From: Chloroflexota bacterium
GTDB taxonomy: Bacteria; Chloroflexota; Anaerolineae; UBA4142; SHND01
DNA length: 55,407 nt
Assembly (NCBI GenBank): GCA_029778615.1
Contig: JAKOPZ010000016.1
Coordinates: 1-55,407 of the forward strand
Direction: 5' to 3'
Positions 1,828 through 48,008 of the stretch are shown here, piece by piece (position 1 is the stretch's first letter; every line of letters starts with the position of its first letter). A model generated the notes under the pieces. The model had not been told where the DNA came from. It searched no databases and saw only the letters and a program-made list of their open reading frames with translations. The translations under genes and the position numbers were made by a program.

Positions 1828-2931
1828 ATGTCTCCTGAACATCTCGCTTCCACATTTTCCGTCATTGGCTATGACCCCCACACGCAAGAATTAGGCGTCG
1901 CCGTACAATCCAAAGCATTCAGCGTCGGCAACATCGTGCCGTGGGCGCACGCGGGCATCGGCGCGATTGCCACTCAGGCGTGGACAAACAAATCTTTTGG
2001 CCCGCGCGGACTCGGACTGTTGAAAAGCGGACACGACCCCAAAGATGTGATTCAACATTTGATTGCAAATGACCCGGACGGCGCACGGCGTCAACTCGCC
2101 GTGATGGACGCGCGTGGGCGCGCCGCGAATTATACGGGCAACGAATGTATGTCGTGGGCGGGCGGCATCGCCGAACCAAATATTTCCGTACAAGGCAACA
2201 TTCTCGCGAGCGAACGCGTACTGACAAACATGCTGCGCGCGTACAAAAACACGCGCGGCAAACTTGCCGAACGCCTGCTCGCCGCGCTCGAAGCGGGACA
2301 AAAAGCGGGCGGCGATACGCGCGGTGACGCGGCATCACCCACCTCGCGTCACATCCGCACTCTGGGTGATGCCGCGTCAGGTCAGCAATCCGCCGCGCTG
2401 TTAGTCGTGCGCGAAAAAAGCGACATGGACGCGCTCGGCGACGTGTATGTGGACTTGCGCGTGGACGACCACAAAACCCCCATTGCAGAGCTGCGGCGGC
2501 TCTACAGCATTTGGGAAAAAGAGCTGTATCCCTTTCTGGAGGGACGGCGCATCAACGCGCTCCTCCACGCAAAAAAATACGCGCGCGCCCAAAAATTGCA
2601 TCGCGAATTTGCTGCCCACGCCGAACGTCTCGCCAAACGCAATTGGCAGGACGCCGCGCTCTTGAACGCGTTCGCGTGGCAGTTGGCGCAAAACGCGTTC
2701 GGTTTGGATGCGGCGTACAAGTACGCCCAACGCGCGGTGAAACTAAAACCGCGCGACGAAAACATCGCCGATACACTGGCGCAAGTTTTATATCAGCGCG
2801 GGGAGGCCGCGCGCGCCGTCGCAATTGAACGCGCGCTCGCCGCCAAATTTCCCGCGCGTGCTGATTTCAAATTGCAATTGGAAAAATTTGAAAAGGCGCT
2901 CAACACCGCGCGGCGTGTTAGAAAAGCCTAA
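1828..2931 (+). CDS. DUF1028 family protein with in-frame palindrome insertion
   Basis: The 367-aa product has the DUF1028 (Ntn-hydrolase-like) N terminus: STFSVIGYDP, LGVAVQSKAFSVGN and GAIATQAW. These proteins are thought to be self-processing hydrolases of unknown substrate. After about residue 190 comes the usual DVYVDLRVDDH segment, and the C terminus (about 240-350) is helical and TPR-like. Family members usually read GGD(K/R/T)RG directly into QSAALLVV. Here residues 167-185 (19 aa) separate these motifs, and the extra DNA is a near-perfect palindromic unit (see repeat 2325-2379). I placed the start at 1828, not at an upstream in-frame GTG/ATG inside capA, because homology begins there and a TATAAT sits just upstream. 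The gene follows the CapA-like gene after 14 bp. Confidence 0.88.
   Translation: MSPEHLASTFSVIGYDPHTQELGVAVQSKAFSVGNIVPWAHAGIGAIATQAWTNKSFGPRGLGLLKSGHDPKDVIQHLIANDPDGARRQLAVMDARGRAANYTGNECMSWAGGIAEPNISVQGNILASERVLTNMLRAYKNTRGKLAERLLAALEAGQKAGGDTRGDAASPTSRHIRTLGDAASGQQSAALLVVREKSDMDALGDVYVDLRVDDHKTPIAELRRLYSIWEKELYPFLEGRRINALLHAKKYARAQKLHREFAAHAERLAKRNWQDAALLNAFAWQLAQNAFGLDAAYKYAQRAVKLKPRDENIADTLAQVLYQRGEAARAVAIERALAAKFPARADFKLQLEKFEKALNTARRVRKA
2325..2379. repeat. Palindromic element inserted in frame in the DUF1028 gene
   Basis: Perfect 17-bp inverted repeat: arms 2325-2341 and 2363-2379, 21-nt loop. The inserted block is 2326-2382 (57 nt), so the reading frame is kept, and GGT is present on both sides, possibly a short target duplication. 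The arms contain the word GGTGATGCCGCGTCA. Confidence 0.85.
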
Positions 2932-23924: not shown

Positions 23925-24117
23925 ATGTTACGCAGAATTGTCATTTCGAGCGGAGCGAGAAATCTCGCAAGGCGCGAATGAGATTTCTCGCAAAACTTGT
24001 CCCGAAGCATTGAGGGAACGGCTCGAAATGACATTTGTCCCGCGAAAGAGTTGCACATTGAGTATTTCAAATTCGTCCTACGTTTACAAACGAACTCTTC
24101 GGCGTTGTGCGTAACAT
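23925..24117. repeat. Second TCATTTCGAG palindromic repeat with outer inverted repeats
   Basis: Core 23939-24033 has perfect 13-bp ends (TGTCATTTCGAGC) and an internal GAGAAATC / GATTTCTC pair; it aligns over its length with 12072-12167. It is enclosed by a perfect 10-bp outer inverted repeat (23925-23934 and 24108-24117). It fills the gap between the 80-aa gene terminator and the histidine kinase gene. Confidence 0.8.
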
Positions 24118-47935: not shown

Positions 47936-48008
47936 ACGAGTGCGATAGTTACATCGTGCGATAGTAGAACGGTAACTATCGCACGACCGCACGATTGCAC
48001 CTTCGCAC
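47936..48008. repeat. 8-bp-period repeat with 13-bp perfect inverted repeat
   Basis: On the minus strand: GTGCGAAG, GTGCAATC, GTGCGGTC, GTGCGATA, GTTACCGT. The period is 8, unlike the heptad arrays. GTGCGATAGTTAC at 47940-47952 has an exact inverted copy at 47972-47984. Confidence 0.75.

Follow-up and report, generated by a model that had tools for sequence, protein, structure and literature searches.

A 55-nt palindromic block at positions 2325–2379 (forward strand) of a 55,407-nt stretch of Chloroflexota DNA (hereafter the window) lies in frame within a DUF1028 gene and belongs to a dispersed repeat family with about 100 copies across five of the six genomes of one genus (Chloroflexota, Anaerolineae). 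The block is best explained, with a probability of roughly 0.88, as one copy of a MITE/REP-like palindrome, mobile but non-autonomous, whose copies have multiplied in this genus and survive translated in genes. By analogy with Rickettsia palindromic elements (RPEs), the best reading is that the element acts like an RPE in an unrelated lineage and may survive as translated, probably disordered insertions.

The arms of the window element, both 17 nt long (TGACGCGGCATCACCCA at 2325–2341 and TGGGTGATGCCGCGTCA at 2363–2379, forward strand), are complementary at 17 of 17 positions (100%) and enclose a 21-nt loop (2342–2362, forward strand) that differs between copies. No other inverted repeat in the 55-kb window combines a perfect 17-bp stem with a 3–60-nt loop, none was found in 200 triplet-shuffled windows, and the RNA fold of the hairpin region (−41.2 kcal/mol, z = −5.6) is far stabler than that of shuffled sequences. 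Two more inverted repeats, at 47940–48000 and 23936–24036 with arms of 26 nt and 16 nt, respectively, appeared by eye to be unrelated to the 55-nt element. The host gene (1828–2931, forward strand) is open throughout and encodes a DUF1028 protein of 367 aa (Pfam PF06267, E = 1.6e-71) with a helical (TPR-like) extension at the C terminus. The initial annotation had placed an in-frame palindrome in this gene, which is borne out; its block at 2326–2382 is the same 57 nt delimited from another edge.

The 19 added residues claimed in that annotation were also recovered by comparison with homologues. In an alignment with 18 DUF1028 proteins drawn from the same genus, order and class (48–80% identity), residues 167–185 were missing from all 18 homologues and both flanks aligned. 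The closest homologue, from genome G003 of the same genus (80% identity), has the empty site CGCGG-TCA (the hyphen marking the junction) where the window reads CGCGG-[55 nt]-GGTCA, giving a net gain of 57 nt (19 codons, residues 167–185) with the frame intact and GG doubled. The left and right GG copies (2323–2324 and 2380–2381, forward strand) are codon positions 1–2 of Gly166 and Gly185, respectively. The structure predicted for the window protein has a mean pLDDT of 84.9 and matches the solved DUF1028 crystal structure 2imh; its pLDDT falls below 50 over just one long internal stretch, residues 166–184, situated between a helix (146–162) and a strand (187–195).

An exact search for the arm pair in the window's own genome returned no copy beyond that of the window, and a BLAST-type search of 60 relatives gave mostly chance short matches, apart from copies in the same genus. 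From one good relative in a sister genome a degenerate pattern was designed, for which there were 30 hits; all but one of these fell in three genomes of the genus, and the reversed control gave a single hit. A covariance model (R1) was built from an alignment of 21 copies, including the window copy, which scored 69.5 bits (E 8.4e-16 in its own genome). With both strands counted, the model gave 27 matches in the window's genome (G000), 91 in G001, 64 in G003, 8 in G004 and 2 in G005, corresponding after halving to about 13, about 45, 32, 4 and 1 copies, respectively, with at most a trace of the element in G002 of the same genus; the source genomes are fragmented MAGs in which repeats may be under-assembled. 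Covariation of the hairpin was evident, with 7 of the 17 stem pairs changed on both sides and 97.5% of cells paired, a value reached in none of 500 shuffles. The expectation that the arm would recur in related genomes was met by this repeat family, which has many in-frame coding copies along with copies outside long ORFs. A chance match, or a one-off expansion within the DUF1028 gene, would be consistent with the single exact arm pair in the window's own genome but is refuted by the roughly 100 related copies that the genus contains, the controls being clean, and is practically excluded.

Beyond the genus the family is scarce. A core-pattern scan of 84,980 species matched only the Chloroflexota MAG records JACQWQ01, CALMZO01 and JAJTXZ01, and a broader pattern applied to 396 genomes of the class found only this genus plus single copies in G013 and G016, both of a sister family, which are longer relatives of the element. 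The IMG/VR search gave no phage-carried match and the Rfam search nothing near the gathering score. Weakly scoring palindromes in G009, G011 and G260, of TCACGCATCACG type, were set aside as other repeats. Different long palindromes made of TCACGCATCACG units were also seen in other genera of the order and class (L094, L097, L233, L234 and L268).

A total of 102 copies were tabulated with their flanks, 60 of them 55 nt and 32 of them 56 nt long, the remainder ranging from 43 to 70 nt; the 55-nt length seems to result from the loss of a single base at differing loop positions. The arms differ among copies yet pair within nearly every copy, and the loops are free to vary. Read in G-strand orientation, the flanks are predominantly GG/GG. 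Equal 2-bp flanks occurred in 53 of 94 cases over all copies (36.9 when shuffled) and in 20 of 30 coding copies (12.1 when shuffled, P = 1e-4), with no excess for 3 bp in either set. This supports a 2-bp target duplication, mostly of GG/CC. The repeat on both sides of the window element, initially given as GGT, is therefore retained as a feature but shortened to GG, since the statistics back 2 bp and show no 3-bp signal. Further support comes from three empty sites in all: the DUF1028 site given above, GAATGG-ACG in BatA and ACTGG-GCAGA in xanthine dehydrogenase, the last two being clean in alignments and the xanthine dehydrogenase site being so in three species. The xanthine dehydrogenase copy has GA on the left and GC on the right; its empty site has GC, the left base being different.

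Not all flanks are equal, and the unequal ones are one-sided (15 GG/GN and no GN/GG in G-strand orientation), an asymmetry that simple duplication does not predict and that counts against the mobile-element reading in the form preferred here. A model in which the flanking Gs are part of the element accounts for the asymmetric exceptions and is left open, although it fails for GA/GA and GT/GT sites and for the xanthine dehydrogenase empty site. The element might also be a REP of the IS200/IS605 type, in which a single-strand hairpin is moved by a Y1 (RAYT) enzyme, leaving the GG target on the left and an element-borne GN end on the right. The hairpin is indeed strong and its arms covary, the left GG is steadier than the right dinucleotide, and Y1 genes are present in all six genomes of the genus. 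However, none of the 17 Y1 loci had a good copy within 1.5 kb on each side, or as far as the contig extended (best match 16.6 bits), the direction of the loop relative to the G strand is random (44:44), and the dinucleotides at the xanthine dehydrogenase site better fit duplication, so that an origin of this type appears unlikely, though it is not to be dismissed.

The enzyme that moves the element was not identified. No transposase or recombinase could be tied to it, and among the matches listed (G000, G001, G004, G005 and part of G003, all fragmented genomes) the arms were never found as the ends of a kilobase element, occurring only as closely spaced pairs (short hairpins) or alone. Mobility through an unidentified enzyme acting in trans is an inference. 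It is possible, though we would hold this only tentatively and at less than even odds, that the family represents a new Chloroflexota mobile system with its own unknown recombinase and a GG/CC target, the 57-bp unit and stop-free frame having been shaped by life in genes; if so, it is in the form of coding sequence that the element spreads, making essential proteins longer time and again. The family bears on which enzyme moves such repeats, a question standing since the discovery of RPEs.

Several features of local copy arrangement were also recorded. Tandem repeats of the heptamer GTGACGG/GTCACCC (read VTRHPSP) surround the element at L143, L145, L183 and L151, and the same repeats accompany it outside long ORFs at L141, L163 and L146; such arrays host many copies, in and outside long ORFs, and have the look of a preferred landing place. 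At L130 (G000:C1:1-9000), a 6-kb span holds four copies, set between RHS/YD-type gene tips that are themselves repeated; as two of the copies have the same flanks, an entire cassette may have been duplicated. The arms ATCACCCA...TGGGTGAT, with C at stem position 15, define a subfamily (window 2325–2379, L199 and L178) that was seen only among coding copies (3/30), and A at this position was seen only in the other copies (17/56).

Copies were classed as coding when located in an ORF of at least 240 aa, the ORFs being called mechanically, so that the coding set may include a few spurious entries and lack some short genes. By this definition, 32 of 59 distinct 55-nt copies were coding, whereas for the 56-nt copies the figure was 5 of 30 (Fisher P = 7e-4), that is, the frameshifting 56-nt copies are depleted from genes. 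The coding 55-nt copies occur in both orientations (23 as in the model, 9 opposite), and 30 of these 32 use phase 2 (if open frames were used equally, log10 P for the 30 would be −7.8). The common phase-2 peptide is G-DASSRT-PRxxxxx-MRDDAS or a variant of it (GDASSR...MRDDAS; DASSRT-x(6-7)-MRDDAS type). All but one of the 30 phase-2 hosts had a Pfam match at 1e-3, some of them weak, and the hosts are unrelated proteins that include MutS, DnaE, PheT, MnmA, dihydropteroate synthase (DHPS), RACo and penicillin-binding proteins (PBPs) along with xanthine dehydrogenase paralogues, PolX, CoA-transferase, pyruvate phosphate dikinase, molybdopterin oxidoreductase and others. DnaE was invaded in two species at two sites, and several inserts lie inside a Pfam domain, splitting the match (RACo_middle, PUA_3 and MoCoBD_2). 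When 16 flank pairs were joined into a chimaeric query, many of them proved to have orthologues without an interruption in the sister species. Several coding copies lie within or near other repeats (VTRHP, LTPHPSP) that had entered the gene earlier.

Longer relatives of the 55-nt unit within genes kept to multiples of three. The DnaE site in G003 shows a net gain of 54 nt, still 3n. The 67-nt relatives in the genes for a TPP enzyme (G013) and a DinB protein (G016), both reading DASS...DDAS, and a 70-nt relative in a Pyr_redox protein gene (G001) are likewise 3n with the 2 bp added and are in the same phase. A 56-nt copy in a DUF4058 gene (L169) is in another phase, although its flanks would allow a net 57 nt. 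These observations bear on whether ribosomes jump over the hairpin (translational bypassing) or it is cut from the mRNA, with the matching dinucleotides as take-off and landing sites. Translational bypassing is known in T4 gene 60 and Magnusiomyces mitochondria. Palindromic inserts bypassed in a yeast mitochondrion are cited in PMC6649704, and the codons on either side of the element begin with the same two bases (GGT...GGT in the window) around a very stable hairpin, all of which would suit such a mechanism. Bypassing, however, requires neither 3n length nor an open frame, whereas the coding copies contain no stops, share one phase and measure mostly 55 nt and otherwise 67 or 70 nt, each of these lengths being 3n once the 2-bp flank is added, and 56-nt copies are under-represented in genes; bypassing or removal from the mRNA is therefore considered unlikely, and only slight weight is given to it. 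That the insert is translated and not skipped is an inference drawn from three sequence features (3n length, single phase, open frame) and not from proteomic data.

Phase 2 sets third codon positions of one arm opposite third codon positions of the other, and paired changes can therefore be silent on both sides. The arms of coding copies showed an excess of silent over replacement changes (P = 0.002, or 0.08 with another reference base), which gives weak support to selection on the encoded peptide. This mild synonymous excess, together with conservation of the peptide across unrelated proteins and two bacterial families, could be taken to mean that the insert has a function of its own (e.g. 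in regulation or binding) and that positive selection maintains it. The unrelated nature of the hosts and the existence of sister-species orthologues without the insert argue otherwise, and the conservation follows from common DNA ancestry and the paired stem; a functional peptide thus seems very improbable.

Returning to the mobile palindromic element, the findings can be accommodated by the following putative course of events. Insertion would occur at a dinucleotide, with a preference for GG/CC, on either strand, and would leave the dinucleotide on both sides; with a 55-nt copy between the two, 57 bp or 19 codons are added. When read with the flank dinucleotide as codon positions 1–2, the insert contains no stop and would encode a hydrophilic, probably disordered peptide. 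Selection would purge gene insertions of any other total length and most of those in other phases, and 57-bp insertions in loops and linkers could persist, being translated within a working protein. The near-neutrality of such insertions is itself inferred.

RPEs, ~150 bp as first reported, are the precedent for frequent in-frame palindromes, and bacterial MITEs are normally intergenic (PMC10969869). The initial annotation had cited Rickettsia as the known precedent, which is sound but incomplete, as several further bacteria are reported to have REP-type repeats within ORFs, with intragenic REPs on record in Opitutus terrae among others (PMC3733652). In behaviour the analogy with RPEs stands, the copies being in frame in unrelated hosts with one preferred phase and a conserved peptide; sequence membership in an RPE family is not shown; overall, the original observation is confirmed and its interpretation largely right. 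RPE-1, RPE-4, RPE-6 and others are likewise short palindromes that occupy numerous unrelated genes in frame and encode a conserved peptide, in addition to non-genic copies (PMC10969869, PMC3733652). Apart from expression of the peptide in vivo, the criteria of protein-coding palindromic elements, of which RPEs are a kind, are fulfilled here by a dispersed palindrome that lies in frame in unrelated genes, has homologues without the insert and encodes a conserved one-phase peptide. Unlike RPEs, the present element is found in another phylum, its unit hardly departs from 55 nt (57 bp once inserted), it duplicates 2 bp of GG/CC, its long loop sits on a 17-bp stem, and its core was found only in Chloroflexota records (84,980 species).

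Resemblance to other repeat classes is partial. CGTC- and GTAG-tagged REPs are also palindromic and dispersed, with some in ORFs, and no enzyme has been linked to the CGTC type either (PMC3733652). REPs, however, measure 20–40 bp, the CGTC types having 8–9-bp stems, 4–5-nt loops and an unpaired tag at one end (PMC3733652), a definition not met by an element with TGACG/CGTCA inside a 17-bp stem at both ends and a loop of ~21 nt; nor is the GTAG REP/RAYT criterion met, no Y1 gene being flanked by the repeat (17 loci). As in MITEs, which are non-autonomous, there are terminal inverted repeats and a target duplication, and this criterion is fulfilled by the 17-bp arms, the 20/30 flank identity and the three empty sites, but no parent insertion sequence was found among the matches listed and the element is often in genes. 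The coding palindromes of Nematomorpha mitochondria are also stable inverted repeats in translated genes but are long perfect repeats embedded in mitochondrial genes, described as distinct from dispersed insertion elements (PMC6649704). Our literature search found no report of palindromic elements in Anaerolineae, which is not proof of absence.

Until now protein-coding palindromes have been regarded as largely peculiar to Rickettsia, in-frame REPs being known only sporadically from other bacteria. The independent Chloroflexota family, with its nearly fixed length, one phase, clean sister-species empty sites and insertions in DnaE, PheT and MutS, allows direct tests of how hairpins enter genes and how often proteins tolerate about the same 19 residues at unrelated sites. 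A different palindromic repeat, CTCACCCCTCTCC...GGAGAGGGG...GGGTGAG, read LTPHPSPYQGEGQG, was also observed in frame within conserved genes, among them the RACo gene of G003 (L188:1500-1620), where the 55-nt element is nested in it, and the mutS of G001 (L267) carries an insert similar to this repeat at approximately the place where the mutS of G004 has the 55-nt element.
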